The notes: generated by a model not told the origin, from the sequence alone. A stretch of DNA of 64,000 nucleotides from Branchiostoma floridae (GCF_000003815.2 NC_049979.1:13145560-13209559), one strand, 5' to 3'. Numbered from the stretch's first letter, positions 35,101 through 38,956 are shown. Translations and numbers: made by a program.

Positions 35101-35772
35101 ATATGTAACTGAGAAAGATGGCAGAGAGTAAGAGGTGTATGTTTGTGTCCGCTAACGTCTTTCCTTGAACTGCAGGAGCCGGTTTAGTTTCCTACTTTGA
35201 AAGAGAATAAGTCAGGAAGGAAAGGATCATCAGGATTTTTGGTATGCTGATAACTTAAGTGAAGCTTGATACAATTTAATATCATTATGTAAATAGGGAT
35301 CTAATTTGTATAAGCAATGGCAAAATGTTATGAACCAACTCCAGGCATATGAAATAAAATGTAATGAGTAACACATTTATGTCTACAGACATCATTCTAC
35401 ATAACAAACCTGGTTTATTTGGCAAAGGTATGTGTTCGTGGAACTCTAGTATGACAATAGTTTCAATACAACAATAGTTCAATAGTTTTATTTCAGAAAA
35501 TCAGCCTTTGCAGCATGTACAAAACAAGCTGAATAACACTGACAGTAGCTTATTACTACTTGTGCATAGTTTCATCACGAAATGTAACGAACATTGCACC
35601 TGGTACACGGAGCAGTGCCCCCTCCGCACGAGGCGCTACACGTGCCTAGCGACCAGCCGCTCCAGCTACAGTTCACCACGGGACACCTGCGGCGGCGGCG
35701 GCGTCTCCAGCCCTCCACGTCCGTCAGTGACAGCAACAGGACCACGGTCAGGAGGAATAGGTGGAGGCGCAT
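2024..35772 (-). CDS. Gene A: secreted TSR-EGF-CCP(17)-ephrin-like-EGF-C-type lectin protein (29 coding exons)
   Basis: Spliced coding sequence, 1534 residues. Exons 5' to 3': 35772-35600, 32336-32176, 29575-29405, 23077-22907, 16546-16376, 14766-14596, 11339-11169, 11022-10849, 10660-10490, 10200-10030, 9644-9474, 9343-9173, 8996-8826, 8615-8445, 7149-6979, 6796-6626, 6446-6279, 5983-5804, 5632-5459, 5321-5200, 4922-4811, 4528-4392, 4119-3962, 3579-3425, 3242-3081, 2913-2809, 2720-2575, 2417-2294, 2154-2024. Every junction has GT/AG, phases agree and the sum (4605 nt) divides by three. Layout: signal peptide (1-21), Arg7 (23-29), thrombospondin type-1 repeat, EGF, 17 CCPs, cysteine-rich block, ephrin-receptor-like module, EGF, C-type lectin domain. 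It has a signal peptide and I saw no membrane segment, so it is probably secreted. The mix recalls polydom (SVEP1) and complement or selectin-type proteins; I know no exact match. Function (recognition or matrix binding) is inferred. Confidence 0.85.
2294..2417 (-). CDS. Gene A exon 28: C-type lectin domain, middle
   Basis: Encodes DFIIETYGGKDMWIGLDD and then EGEFLWADGSRL and FTYWTYG. WIGL is the hallmark hydrophobic-core motif of C-type lectin domains. Phase 0 in, phase 1 out; donor G|GTCAGT. Confidence 0.9.
2575..2720 (-). CDS. Gene A exon 27: C-type lectin domain, start
   Basis: Encodes AITECPVGSTMFRDTCYLV through AGESCRQHGGLLAMVKDKDTQ in shorter pieces. The first disulfide cysteine and the helix-1 region (ESCRQHGGLLA) are typical of long-form C-type lectin domains. 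Acceptor GTCAG, donor CAG|GTAA. Confidence 0.88.
2809..2913 (-). CDS. Gene A exon 26: EGF-like module
   Basis: Encodes SDCNCGLNACVPTSKGW, then MCQCPTGYTQQDDKCV: six cysteines with EGF spacing and the CxCPxGY motif. Flanked by phase-1 introns. It sits directly before the lectin domain, an EGF/lectin neighbourhood also seen in selectins and lecticans, though in a different order. Confidence 0.88.
3081..3242 (-). CDS. Gene A exon 25: ephrin-receptor-like (GCC2/GCC3) cysteine-rich module
   Basis: Encodes VACPPGSFHNPMSKACEPCP, then GTYQTNSSQTSCTSCPEGTT and DPSQCK. The CPPGSF, CxPCPxGTYQ and SCTxCPxGTTT pattern is that of the ephrin-receptor-like repeat of SCUBE and polydom proteins. Phase 1 on both sides. 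Confidence 0.85.
3425..3579 (-). CDS. Gene A exon 24: unassigned segment ending in a cysteine pair
   Basis: Encodes KAALDIKTVIGTFVIPING, then TVVTEGIAISDP, and ends FVGCPTGFFQQQSGPGCV, which leads into the ephrin-like module. The first part is a beta-strand-like hydrophobic stretch that I do not recognise. Frame is set by both neighbours (phase 2 in, phase 1 out). Confidence 0.8.
3962..4119 (-). CDS. Gene A exon 23: segment with furin-like TRRRRD site
   Basis: Encodes ISEISVEEGVRTRRRRDIS, then LTVIDITIQLYIEDNSQLSL and LPADMDVAK. RTRRRR|D fits a proprotein-convertase cleavage site. The donor is weak (AAA|GTACTA) but the phase-2 junction to exon 24 restores a lysine codon. The acceptor lies just downstream (minus strand) of the 4169-4268 gap. 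Confidence 0.75.
4169..4268. other. Assembly gap (100 N)
   Basis: A run of exactly 100 N inside the Gene A intron between exons 22 and 23. Both flanks carry CCTTCATG, so a small repeat may have collapsed. Exons on either side meet in phase 0, so no missing exon is required. Confidence 0.99.
4392..4528 (-). CDS. Gene A exon 22: cysteine-rich linker, part 3
   Basis: Encodes DPWNPFGMIQIGGLTITS, then RQYIRSELWRQGLCLPPCR. The frame was chosen because it alone fits phase 1 in and phase 0 out; another open frame in this exon (PVESIRYDTD) does not join its neighbours. No family recognised. Confidence 0.75.
4811..4922 (-). CDS. Gene A exon 21: cysteine-rich linker, part 2
   Basis: Encodes TYGLGRVVTYQCGDHTSW, then LWMTRVDNLLKIVSVSTCQ. 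Acceptor TTCTTAAG, donor G|GTGTCA. YQC and STC resemble the second half of a CCP-like fold, but no CCP tryptophan motif follows. Junction phases (0 in, 1 out) agree with both neighbours. Confidence 0.7.
5200..5321 (-). CDS. Gene A exon 20: cysteine-rich linker, part 1
   Basis: Encodes PDDLCSRYALANPDDGYKVC, then GGEDKEFCTMHCNPPK. Four cysteines; I do not recognise the family. It follows the last CCP and opens the unique region. Acceptor TTTTTAG, donor AAG|GTATGA. Confidence 0.8.
5459..5632 (-). CDS. Gene A exon 19: CCP 17 (six-cysteine type)
   Basis: Encodes VCCSEVGIIRNGQS, ESCYSDVATFSCDPGFQL, DVVCGADGTWLGHVPYCE. A CCP with the four usual cysteines plus a pair: the second C of CC and the C of ESCYSD. 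Phase 1 on both sides. Confidence 0.88.
5804..5983 (-). CDS. Gene A exon 18: CCP 16 (six-cysteine type)
   Basis: Encodes EICCDETLTIANGS, GFCFGNIVSFSCNVGHQL and AATCQEDGTWSTVPVCE. It has the same extra cysteine pair as its two neighbours. Phase 1 on both sides; donor A|GTGCGT. Confidence 0.88.
6279..6446 (-). CDS. Gene A exon 17: CCP 15 (six-cysteine type)
   Basis: Encodes RCCTLPTVGNGDIAGG, TCFSDTITVSCDVGYSI and LTCTEDGVWDETPPACK. It has CC at the start and an added C in GTCFSD. Phase 1 on both sides; acceptor CCCCAAAG is purine-rich and weak. Confidence 0.85.
6626..6796 (-). CDS. Gene A exon 16: CCP 14
   Basis: Encodes KSCPVLDVIPDGTVAGGHL, then YGDNTTFICSAGYQLVGD and RTCQANQTWSGLQPFCQ: four CCP cysteines, the GYxLxG turn and the core tryptophan. 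A 171-nt phase-1 exon. Confidence 0.9.
6979..7149 (-). CDS. Gene A exon 15: CCP 13
   Basis: Encodes VSCSPLPSTTNGHVTGG, then AVSFTCDEGYELVGSQ and CQADMTWSSTTPACQ. A standard four-cysteine CCP; 171 nt, acceptor TTACAG, donor A|GTAAGT. Confidence 0.9.
7345..8431. mobile_element. Putative element with G-rich palindromic ends
   Basis: The left edge (7345-7400) has CTCGCCCCCC repeated around GATCTCG. The right edge (8330-8431) has GGGCGAGATCACGGGGGG and GGGCGAAAACGCTA repeats in inverted orientation. The 0.9 kb between has no recognisable coding sequence. It lies in the intron between Gene A exons 14 and 15, ending about 15 bp from exon 14. Could equally be a local G/C-rich inverted duplication. 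Confidence 0.4.
8445..8615 (-). CDS. Gene A exon 14: CCP 12
   Basis: Encodes KVCPVLPVLDHGVSTGG, YGDIITFSCLPGFQL and LCRADQTWSGTQPRCE. A standard CCP of 171 nt; donor C|GTAAGT lies only about 15 bp from the poly-G tract of the adjacent repeat. Confidence 0.9.
8826..8996 (-). CDS. Gene A exon 13: CCP 11
   Basis: Encodes VTCPDLDAPLNGNKVGG, SSYGDIVTFSCSAGYQL and TCQHNQQWNGTQPSCT. Acceptor CTCTGTAG lies 11 bp from a perfect double hairpin (9007-9097). Confidence 0.9.
9007..9097. repeat. Two perfect tandem hairpins
   Basis: First hairpin: 21-bp perfect arms (9007-9027 and 9033-9053) with a 5-nt loop. Second: 18-bp perfect arms (9057-9074 and 9080-9097) with a 5-nt loop. They are 3 bp apart. They lie immediately upstream (minus strand) of the exon 13 acceptor, in the branch-point region. 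Confidence 0.9.
9173..9343 (-). CDS. Gene A exon 12: CCP 10
   Basis: Encodes KECPQLNFPDHGIMTGG, YGDVTTFSCDPGYEL and [17 protein letters not shown]. 171 nt, phase 1, acceptor GCACAG, donor G|GTGAGA. Confidence 0.9.
9474..9644 (-). CDS. Gene A exon 11: CCP 9
   Basis: Encodes VQCPSLPPLSDGQMTGG, YGDKVTFSCDDGFQLAGS and ICQADQQWSGSQPSCQ. 171 nt, acceptor GTGCAG, donor A|GTACGT. Confidence 0.9.
10030..10200 (-). CDS. Gene A exon 10: CCP 8
   Basis: Encodes KSCPQLSAPDNGGVSGG, DTANFTCDPGYELVGS and LCQANQQWSGTQPSCQ. 171 nt, acceptor CAATAG, donor A|GTAAGA. Confidence 0.9.
10490..10660 (-). CDS. Gene A exon 9: CCP 7
   Basis: Encodes IVCPDLSPPLNGHVTGG, YGDTAVMTCDEGFSLVGD and [16 protein letters not shown]. 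171 nt, acceptor TTTCAG, donor A|GTAAGA. Confidence 0.9.
10849..11022 (-). CDS. Gene A exon 8: CCP 6
   Basis: Encodes VQCPTLSAPAHGSSTGA, FGDTLSFVCDTGYELYGS and TCQADQTWSAAAPSCT. 174 nt. The upstream intron carries a (CA)n tract at about 11052-11085. Confidence 0.9.
11169..11339 (-). CDS. Gene A exon 7: CCP 5 (duplicated exon, copy 1)
   Basis: Encodes IRCPTLSAPSHGTISGS, YYYGNRVTFGCHSGYSLRG and [16 protein letters not shown]. Nearly identical to exons 3, 4 and 5, and the intron flanks are shared as well. The flank at 11340-11420 is an uninterrupted copy of the site that carries a 3.3-kb insertion in exon-5 copy. Confidence 0.92.
11716..14352. mobile_element. G-rich TIR DNA transposon, non-autonomous, copy 1
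   Basis: Inverted ends: left GGGACTTGACGATATTTATC, right the complement of GGGACTTAACGATATTTACC, each followed by G-rich tract and CTGGTGCA. Flanked by TAA(G) on both sides (11713-11715, 14353-14355), which resembles the TWA target duplication of PIF/Harbinger elements. Repeated GGGAGGGCCATTGAAAA blocks lie at both ends. No transposase recognised; the longest open frame (12748-13182, +) matches nothing I know. A second copy lies at 51882-53562. Confidence 0.65.
14596..14766 (-). CDS. Gene A exon 6: CCP 4
   Basis: Encodes KLCQRLSSPSHGQVTGG, YGDVTTFTCDTGYELQGD and RTCQANQQWSGAQPTCS. 171 nt, acceptor TTTCAG, donor A|GTAGGG. Confidence 0.9.
14927..14974 (-). pseudogene. Truncated CCP exon relic
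   Basis: The minus strand reads RTCQANQGWTGSQRTC, the C-terminal end of a CCP module. No first half and no splice donor follow: the reading runs into a poly-C/G tract at 14891-14911. It sits between exons 5 and 6, so it is probably the remains of a lost CCP exon. Confidence 0.8.
14975..16300. other. Intron sequence without recognised genes
   Basis: Non-coding sequence between Gene A exons 5 and 6. A piece with a Helentron-like 3' end (GAGTTCGTCGAATTCTAGTT, near 15200) is visible. I see nothing else. Confidence 0.5.
16376..16546 (-). CDS. Gene A exon 5: CCP 3 (duplicated exon, copy 2)
   Basis: Same module as exon 7 except that it ends QPRCT rather than QPTCT. Its 5' flank (minus strand) is split by a 3.27-kb Helentron-like insertion that starts about 16 bp from the acceptor; the other half of the flank resumes at 19836. 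Confidence 0.9.
18390..18720 (+). pseudogene. LINE reverse-transcriptase fragment
   Basis: Frames read PPWLLSNFYEELAPVMCNIYNA, given here in part as LLSNFYEELAPVMCNIYN, then TEELVVPVPKVTRP, FRCISLTSYLGKVYE and YSQHGFRKSLHSS. These are motifs 1-3 of a non-LTR reverse transcriptase (PxPK, RxISLTxxLGK, QHGFRK). Frameshifts separate them. Carried inside the 3.3-kb element. Confidence 0.75.
18850..19085. repeat. Tandem repeat, about 86-90 bp x 2.7
   Basis: Units begin GCTATTACTGTGTTTTATAA or variants, then TTTTTACAGCGCTTTTCTAT, then TGTCATTCTAAAGACACAGT. Three successive copies with moderate divergence, inside the Helentron-like element. Confidence 0.8.
19980..21306 (+). mobile_element. Helentron-like non-autonomous element, full length
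   Basis: Begins ACCTTTGCCAGAATGGCTAA (a 5' hairpin), has a GT/GTCT-rich stretch about 60 bp in, a body of TTTGCATAATTAATGAG blocks, and ends TTTGGCAAAGGTATGTG...AACTCTAGT. ACCTTTGCC at the start is the complement of GGCAAAGGT near the end. No coding sequence. Confidence 0.8.
21307..22590. other. Intron sequence, nothing recognised
   Basis: AT-rich intron sequence of Gene A between exons 4 and 5. Contains scattered pieces of repeat. No coding or RNA gene seen. Confidence 0.45.
22768..22821. repeat. (CA)n microsatellite
   Basis: Nearly pure AC dinucleotide run in the flank of the duplicated exon-4 copy. The same position in the 16.3-kb copy has a shorter CA tract and the 29.3-kb copy has none. 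Confidence 0.95.
22907..23077 (-). CDS. Gene A exon 4: CCP 2 (duplicated exon, copy 3)
   Basis: Same CCP as exons 3, 5 and 7, ending QPRCT. Silent differences only at several sites relative to exon 5. Splice sites intact (acceptor AACAG, donor A|GTAAGC). Confidence 0.92.
23395..25620 (-). mobile_element. Helentron-like element, inverted, interrupted by a LINE
   Basis: Inverted AT-rich body (TTTCTCAGTTACATATGTGAC, TGCATAATTAATG blocks), then the CTGCAGTACCTTAGG and GGGCCCATTATCGAAC segments, ending in the complement of the 5' end (TTCTTGGCGAAGGTAA). The reading CCCACCTATCAAATTATCAT / AAATATTATCAGGATCC is split by the LINE at about 24150-24785. Confidence 0.65.
24150..24785 (+). mobile_element. 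5'-truncated LINE 3' end with intact 155-codon reading frame
   Basis: An open frame (24194-24661) encodes a basic protein with ICQYCNLNKIEDECHFIVEC, a C-x2-C...H-x4-C cluster found at the C-terminus of many LINE ORF2 proteins, ending NCFKKREEVEL. It is followed by AATAAA (24761) and a CATTCATTCATTC tail. It sits inside a Helentron-like element with partial flanking duplications. The frame is intact, suggesting a fairly recent insertion. Related tails occur at 61500-61740 and 63810-64000. Confidence 0.8.
25621..26770. other. Repeat-derived intron sequence
   Basis: Contains a plus-strand Helentron-like 5' end (ACCTTCGCCAAGAAGGTCAT, 25800) and then a tandemly similar segment (GGTGCGAGCACGACGATTTTT, shown in part; TTTGGGCCTCCTGGTG) recurring about every 170-180 bp to 26740. 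No coding signal. Confidence 0.5.
27018..27101 (+). other. Candidate small exon (28 codons) with donor
   Basis: ATG-initiated frame MVELELKQKKMQFSN, then ENCIECGHKRK, followed at once by AAG|GTATGTG. CxxC suggests metal binding. No partner exon could be placed, and it may belong to a mobile element. Low confidence. Confidence 0.25.
27218..28110. other. Unrecognised open frames
   Basis: Two open frames of modest length: 27218-27457 (-, 79 codons, Gln/Asn-rich) and 27802-28107 (+, 101 codons). Neither matches a family I know, and neither has neighbours that support a gene. They probably derive from an older mobile element. Confidence 0.2.
28620..29180 (-). pseudogene. Decayed LINE ORF2 C-terminal fragment
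   Basis: The minus strand reads KHTKVTAKKMACSMGMIKK, then, after frameshifts, QFQRIVTSQQPAVLYHHL and RLPKPRTNALKRTFTYRAIS with STWNDFH. PRTNxLKRxFxYRxxxxWN is the typical end of CR1/Rex-type ORF2 proteins. Several stops show it is dead. Confidence 0.75.
29405..29575 (-). CDS. Gene A exon 3: CCP 1 (duplicated exon, copy 4)
   Basis: First CCP of the protein. Same module as exons 4, 5 and 7, ending QPTCI. Acceptor CCAG, donor A|GTAAGC. Its phase-1 start completes an arginine codon with exon 2. Confidence 0.9.
30002..31344 (-). mobile_element. Helentron-like element, full length, inverted
   Basis: Starts (plus strand) ACTAGAGTTCCACGAACACA, the complement of the 3' end, and finishes at TTAGCCATTCTGGCAAAGGT, the complement of the 5' hairpin. 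A (CA)n tract at about 31244-31303 lies 40-90 bp from the 5' end, as in the other copies. Confidence 0.8.
32176..32336 (-). CDS. Gene A exon 2: end of thrombospondin repeat and EGF-like module
   Basis: Encodes TKSPPASCGGADCSGSASS, RCACTGPNPCQNGG and CTCAAGFTGSCCQT. The frame is fixed by phase 2 from exon 1 and phase 1 to exon 3. It is the counterpart of Gene B exon 2 ([12 protein letters not shown]...GFVGSCCET). Confidence 0.85.
32419..33899 (-). mobile_element. Helentron-like element, full length, inverted
   Basis: Same ends and body as the 30002-31344 copy. It carries an internal duplication near 33700-33850, where GTACCTTAGCAAGCCGCTAG recurs and a second CA tract (33653-33692) is flanked by both copies. 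Confidence 0.8.
34112..35450 (+). mobile_element. Helentron-like element, full length
   Basis: ACCTTTGCCAGAATGGCTAA start, GTCTGTCTGTGTGTCTGTGT near the 5' end, AT-rich body with TTTGCATAATTAATGAGG, and 3' end GGCAAAGGTATGTGTTCGTGG followed by AACTCTAGT. About 1.34 kb with no coding capacity. It lies in the first coding intron of Gene A. Confidence 0.82.
35600..35772 (-). CDS. Gene A exon 1: signal peptide, Arg7 tract, start of thrombospondin repeat
   Basis: MRLHLFLLTVVLLLSLTDVE (signal peptide), then GW, seven arginines and CPVVNCSWSGWSLGTCSASC. WSGWSxxxxCSxxC is the thrombospondin type-1 core. The start was chosen because the ATG follows a splice acceptor (TATTCAAG|ATG), exactly as in Gene B. 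Donor AG|GTGCAA, phase 2. Confidence 0.88.

Positions 35773-38956: not shown

Follow-up and report, generated by a model that had tools for sequence, protein, structure and literature searches.

The locus described here is a head-to-head gene pair in a stretch of 64,000 nucleotides of the Branchiostoma floridae genome (GCF_000003815.2 NC_049979.1:13145560-13209559; the whole stretch is referred to as the window and positions are counted from its first letter), together with a palindromic TATA-like octamer situated between the two genes. Gene A on the minus strand and Gene B on the plus strand diverge, with 3,017 bp separating their start codons. An alignment of the spliced N-termini, run with composition correction off, gave 51 identical residues over 120 positions (93.2 bits). 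The two genes are adjacent, lie on opposite strands with facing 5' ends and have homologous products, and are true paralogues with homologous N-termini, which bears out what had been proposed in a first, sequence-only reading of this DNA. Both begin with a signal peptide recognised by eye, an arginine run and a TSP1-like module, in agreement with that reading, and continue with an EGF-like module and then with CCP (sushi) exons.

The first coding exon of Gene A (35600..35772, minus) contains the signal peptide, the arginine run and most of the TSP1-like module and has a phase-2 end, and the second (32176..32336, minus) contains the end of this module together with the EGF-like module and has a phase-1 end at GTGAGT. 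In Gene B the first coding exon (38790..38956, plus) holds the signal peptide, the arginine run and the first part of the TSP1-like module, again with a phase-2 end, and the second (43911..44101, plus) holds the rest of this module and the EGF-like module. It is followed by a very poor donor, GTTCAG (44102-44107, plus, score -8.39), where Gene A has GTGAGT; at this point Gene B may fail to splice or the base calls may be wrong. The phase-2 junction within the TSP1-like module is found in both genes (35600/32336 in Gene A and 38956/43911 in Gene B), and the "same plan" earlier claimed for the two starts holds in outline but not in the exact position of this intron, which the N-terminal alignment places 7 codons (21 nt) later in Gene A than in Gene B. 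Despite this offset the protein length is nearly kept. A phmmer search against PDB gave weak matches of the TSP1-like module to thrombospondin-1 (E-values of 0.0013 for Gene A and 0.039 for Gene B), and no Pfam match was obtained for this module or for the EGF-like exons of either gene; the EGF module of the sequence-only reading is named in both genes from its cysteine pattern only.

For the analysis of promoter and splice elements a TBP matrix approximating that of JASPAR was used together with hand-written splice and initiator matrices, giving scores that are uncalibrated against any known start site of the window; the start sites, first exons and any regulation given below are predictions. 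The palindromic octamer, TTATATAA, is located at 38408-38415 and is identical on both strands, containing TATATAAA from 38409 on the plus strand and TATATAAG from 38414 on the minus strand, and a GTAAGT is found on either side of it, at 38538 on the plus strand (123 bp away) and at 38343 on the minus strand (65 bp away), all as previously reported. Its TBP-matrix scores are 8.65 (plus) and 7.05 (minus), and it is the only site in the window that fits the strict TATA consensus TATAWAAR on both strands, with 0.7 such sites expected from 40 simulated windows.

When the whole window was considered, seven copies of TTATATAA were found, compared to a mean of 1.75 in 100 dinucleotide shuffles. Three of the seven have ATTATATAAGTC in common (first T of TATA at 300, 20888 and 30408), two of these being situated inside tandem arrays (20346-21011 and 30357-30957), and another copy is found at 38574-38581, 166 bp from the octamer and within the predicted first intron of Gene B. 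Sites scoring in both directions with the TBP matrix, counted with the score of the octamer's weaker side as threshold, number 9 in the window against 8.0 in 30 first-order Markov windows, which is a chance number. The motif GTAAGT is twice as frequent as in shuffles (67 against 34.3). Most likely, the octamer is symmetric by coincidence. Two other readings were considered and rejected. One is that the promoter was duplicated in inverted form together with the genes; the similarity of the flanks is not above chance (best E-value 1.2), and none of the seven inverted pairs of at least 9 nt listed in 38180-38800 is centred on the octamer. The other is a known small RNA gene on the TATA, for which no Rfam family reached the gathering threshold and no tRNA was found in the window.

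Toward Gene B, the sequence TATATAAAG has a TBP score of 8.65, a level reached by 0.25 sites per kb per strand, and a CA suitable as initiator is found 29 bp from the TATA, at 38438. The combined TATA-plus-initiator score of 11.89 is the highest of the six plus-strand candidates in 37400-38789 and the seventh in the window, where scores of this height occur at 0.055 per kb per strand. From this CA a putative non-coding first exon would extend over 38438..38537 (plus) to the donor at 38538 (score 5.89, 0.18 per kb per strand), and the putative first intron (38538..38789, plus) has a GTAAGT donor, the sequence TACTAAC and a CAG acceptor immediately preceding the ATG; the exon that follows starts at 38790 (acceptor score 8.24, 0.016 per kb per strand). 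With an acceptor and a donor of this quality the predicted spliced non-coding first exon of Gene B is well supported. TATA, CA start, donor and acceptor taken together also support the palindromic TATA as the putative promoter of Gene B, the core promoter being less firm than the splice sites.

The side facing Gene A looks different. Here the sequence TATATAAGT has a TBP score of 7.05, a level reached by 0.84 sites per kb per strand. At 28–33 bp from the TATA there is no CA on the minus strand, only one TA step at 29 bp, so that a CA-type initiator at about 30 bp is found on the plus side alone; the TATA-plus-initiator score of the palindrome in this direction, 6.03, is at background level (2.2 per kb per strand). 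The GTAAGT put forward as the Gene A donor (38338..38343, minus) scores 2.55, a level found at 2.33 per kb per strand; its exon side is weak, with AGT preceding the GT, and it overlaps with an 11-bp direct repeat, TACACTGTGTA. The positions of the two flanking donors were thus correctly given in the earlier reading, but their quality is unequal, 5.89 on the plus side against 2.55 on the minus side. An acceptor directly before the ATG, which had been claimed for both genes, is very strong in Gene B but in Gene A the AG in question scores 1.20, again background (5.5 per kb per strand). The alternative donor suggested near 37858 (37862) is average, with a score of 2.74. The proposal that one TATA serves both genes is supported on the side of Gene B, which has TATA, CA start, donor and acceptor, but not on that of Gene A, whose elements are near background; they lend no support to a use of the palindromic TATA by Gene A, which most likely makes no use of it.

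Other candidates for the start of Gene A were found on the minus strand. The strongest minus donor in 35773-38700 is AAAG/GTAAGAG at 38115..38120 (score 6.61 at 38120, 0.10 per kb per strand), and the strongest minus acceptor in 35700-36500 is located at 35852..35873, with an exon that would begin at 35851 (score 6.43, 0.19 per kb per strand). Two candidate core promoters are situated closer to the gene. The first (36461..36495, minus) consists of GTATAAATCC followed by CTCACTG, with the A at 36464, 30 bp on, and the second (36083..36118, minus) of GTATAAATGA followed by TTCAGTG, with the A at 36086, 31 bp on. Their scores are the third and second highest in the window, 14.22 for TATA 36494 with start 36464 (692 bp upstream of the ATG of Gene A) and 14.47 for TATA 36117 with start 36086 (314 bp upstream); in a third-order Markov control such scores occur at 0.017 per kb of strand, or about 0.05 in 3 kb, compared to the two seen. 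Both starts fit the initiator BBCABW, a form found at 13 TATA sites in the window. Judging from these elements, the best candidate for the start of Gene A would be the TATA-plus-initiator pair 36494/36464, from which a leader would be spliced to 35851. About 220 bp upstream of the ATG of Gene A, at 35994-36403, lies an element whose 44-bp inverted ends are perfect and which contains the 36086 candidate (minus).

Taken together, these elements are explained most economically if the TATA drives Gene B and Gene A has a separate start. TBP would bind at 38409, transcription of Gene B would start near 38438, and a non-coding exon of about 100 nt would be joined, through the donor at 38538, to the exon that opens with the ATG at 38790. 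The locus would then be a head-to-head pair of the ordinary sort, made up of diverged paralogues from a family of secreted TSP1/EGF/CCP proteins, with the palindromic TATA belonging to Gene B, an account to which we give about an even chance. Several observations weigh against it. The start of Gene B fits only the loose initiator YCAN, shared by 39 TATA sites in the window, and not BBCABW, and neither the Gene A nor the Gene B start candidates match YYANWYY or TCAKTY. In the third-order Markov control a score as high as 11.89 is no rarity (0.116 per kb of strand), and on the plus strand it is nearly equalled at 37612 (11.35); the leader of Gene B has four upstream ATGs, which may indicate translational control or a slightly different start. 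The Gene A candidates at 36494 and 36117 do not match strict TATAWAAR, which the palindrome does on the minus strand (38414), as do 38580 and 38578. The donor at 36412 that the start at 36464 would use is average, with a score of 3.37 (1.33 per kb per strand), and the 36086 candidate, sitting in the mobile-like element, could belong to that element. The leader from 36464 has one upstream ATG, whereas the 41-nt leader that Gene A would have from the palindrome has none. High TATA-plus-initiator scores are, moreover, no more numerous in the window than in the control, leaving the scan with little power. Finally, the combination of a palindrome with an outward GTAAGT at no more than 130 bp on each side is found a single time here and turned up just once among 40 simulated third-order Markov windows (0.025 per 64 kb), by criteria set after the site was seen and with GTAAGT itself more frequent than in shuffles.

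This last figure is the strongest number for the idea that the palindrome binds TBP either way and that a single TATA drives both genes, Gene A from about 38385 (with the donor at 38343 or 38120) and Gene B from about 38438. The idea also draws on the octamer being the sole site of its kind in the window, on the short leader without upstream ATG and on transcription in both directions from one TATA, documented in the archaeon Pyrococcus furiosus (PMC6640164). It is nevertheless unlikely given the low minus TATA score, the lack of a CA initiator toward Gene A, the weak donor at 38343 and the weak acceptor at 35772, and divergent pairs in fly and human are mostly without TATA boxes (PMC2670823). 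In its full form, with RNA polymerase II using one palindromic TATA in both orientations and the starts of two divergent paralogues of immune type lying about 53 bp from each other, it appears distinctly improbable; if true, the two genes would have a single TBP molecule to compete for or to alternate on. A common promoter region with no TATA in common, i.e. an open stretch at about 38.1–38.45 kb from which a TATA-less Gene A would be spliced from 38120 to 35851 and Gene B would start from the TATA, is a doubtful but somewhat better alternative. It would join the top minus donor to the top acceptor of their respective regions. However, no start site for Gene A is visible in the sequence there, the leader 38384-38121 holds three upstream ATGs, and the CpG observed/expected ratio of 1.01 in 38100-38299, compared to 0.77 for the window, is exceeded in 36700-36899 (1.04) and 37500-37699 (1.13). 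Compatible with any of these readings, though improbable, Gene B could be decaying or make a short TSP1-EGF protein only, in which case a coupling of two working paralogues would be moot. Its EGF-like exon ends at GTTCAG instead of GTGAGT and the frame read past this exon stops after 14 further residues; against this, seven donors and six acceptors of the eight plus-strand CCP exons score above 0, and a single bad donor could be non-canonical or stem from an error in the assembly. Between these possibilities, the reading with the TATA as the promoter of Gene B and a separate start for Gene A is the one we prefer.

Downstream of the N-terminal modules, 20 CCP exons were found by script in the window, 12 on the minus and 8 on the plus strand. 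Phase 1 was imposed by the script, so that the phase-1 CCP exons of the sequence-only reading are confirmed in the sense that all 20 are compatible with this phase. The sushi family PF00084 of Pfam scored above the cut-off in all seven CCP exons submitted. A co-duplication of the CCP parts was considered and set aside, the CCP tree giving no decision on it: neither gene's CCPs form one group, good support is found for one of its 20 inner branches, and the labels cluster to some degree (5 changes against 7.5 in shuffles). This tree was built from 25 of 26 rows and 53 columns, the dropped row being a false match, a TSP1-like exon; the script excluded rows that contained N or had an unusual length. 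One CCP exon of Gene A is present in four copies on the minus strand (11169-11339, 16376-16546, 22907-23077 and 29405-29575), which are about 98% alike over 209–217 nt when compared to the copy at 16 kb, with flanks that are less alike; a further stretch of flanking sequence, at 19832-19986, aligned on its own, without the exon. The pattern suggests a recent spread of one exon inside Gene A. On the same strand, downstream of the Gene A CCP exons (2551-4131), an Ephrin_rec_like exon was identified above cut-off at 3007-3285, an EGF-like exon at 2741-2941 just under the Pfam cut-off (E-value 0.00053) and perhaps a C-type-lectin-like exon at 2551-2754, seen by eye and with no Pfam match. A reverse-transcriptase fragment is located at 61034-61390 (minus; Pfam RVT_1, E-value 5e-06, 26.8 bits, under the curated cut-off of 29.6).

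As it stands, the locus represents a head-to-head paralogue pair of an already known kind, in which one gene has a well-marked putative promoter. A shared TATA, if true, would offer a clean natural test of how animal promoters get their direction and of whether one binding site ties paralogues together or makes them mutually exclusive. A literature search on palindromic TATA elements revealed no paper on animal gene pairs, judged by titles and the start of abstracts. The runs of sushi modules resemble those of the complement proteins CR1, CR2 and factor H, which are PDB matches of one Gene B exon, but in Gene A and Gene B they are preceded by an arginine run and by TSP1-like and EGF-like modules, and on the strand of Gene A the Ephrin_rec_like and EGF-like exons lie further downstream, unlike in CR1, CR2 and factor H. 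Head-to-head genes with bidirectional promoters are described for Branchiostoma lanceolatum, fly and human in PMC6292497 and PMC2670823, the latter reporting that the divergent pairs of fly and human mostly lack TATA boxes and that a few have them in both orientations. Like these pairs, Gene A and Gene B are divergent and possibly have one regulatory stretch between their starts, but unlike most of the fly and human pairs they have a TATA, and 3 kb separate their start codons. The closest parallel to a shared TATA is Pyrococcus furiosus, where one symmetric TATA is transcribed both ways (PMC6640164), with 49 bp from start to start at the tested promoter and the antisense products are taken as non-functional by the authors. 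With this documented case and the few pairs carrying TATA boxes in both orientations, a shared TATA would be unusual but with precedent. As in P. furiosus, the near-symmetric TATA described here could bind TBP both ways, and the distance between starts would be about 53 bp compared to 49 bp; in contrast to that archaeal promoter, the side facing Gene A has no CA initiator.

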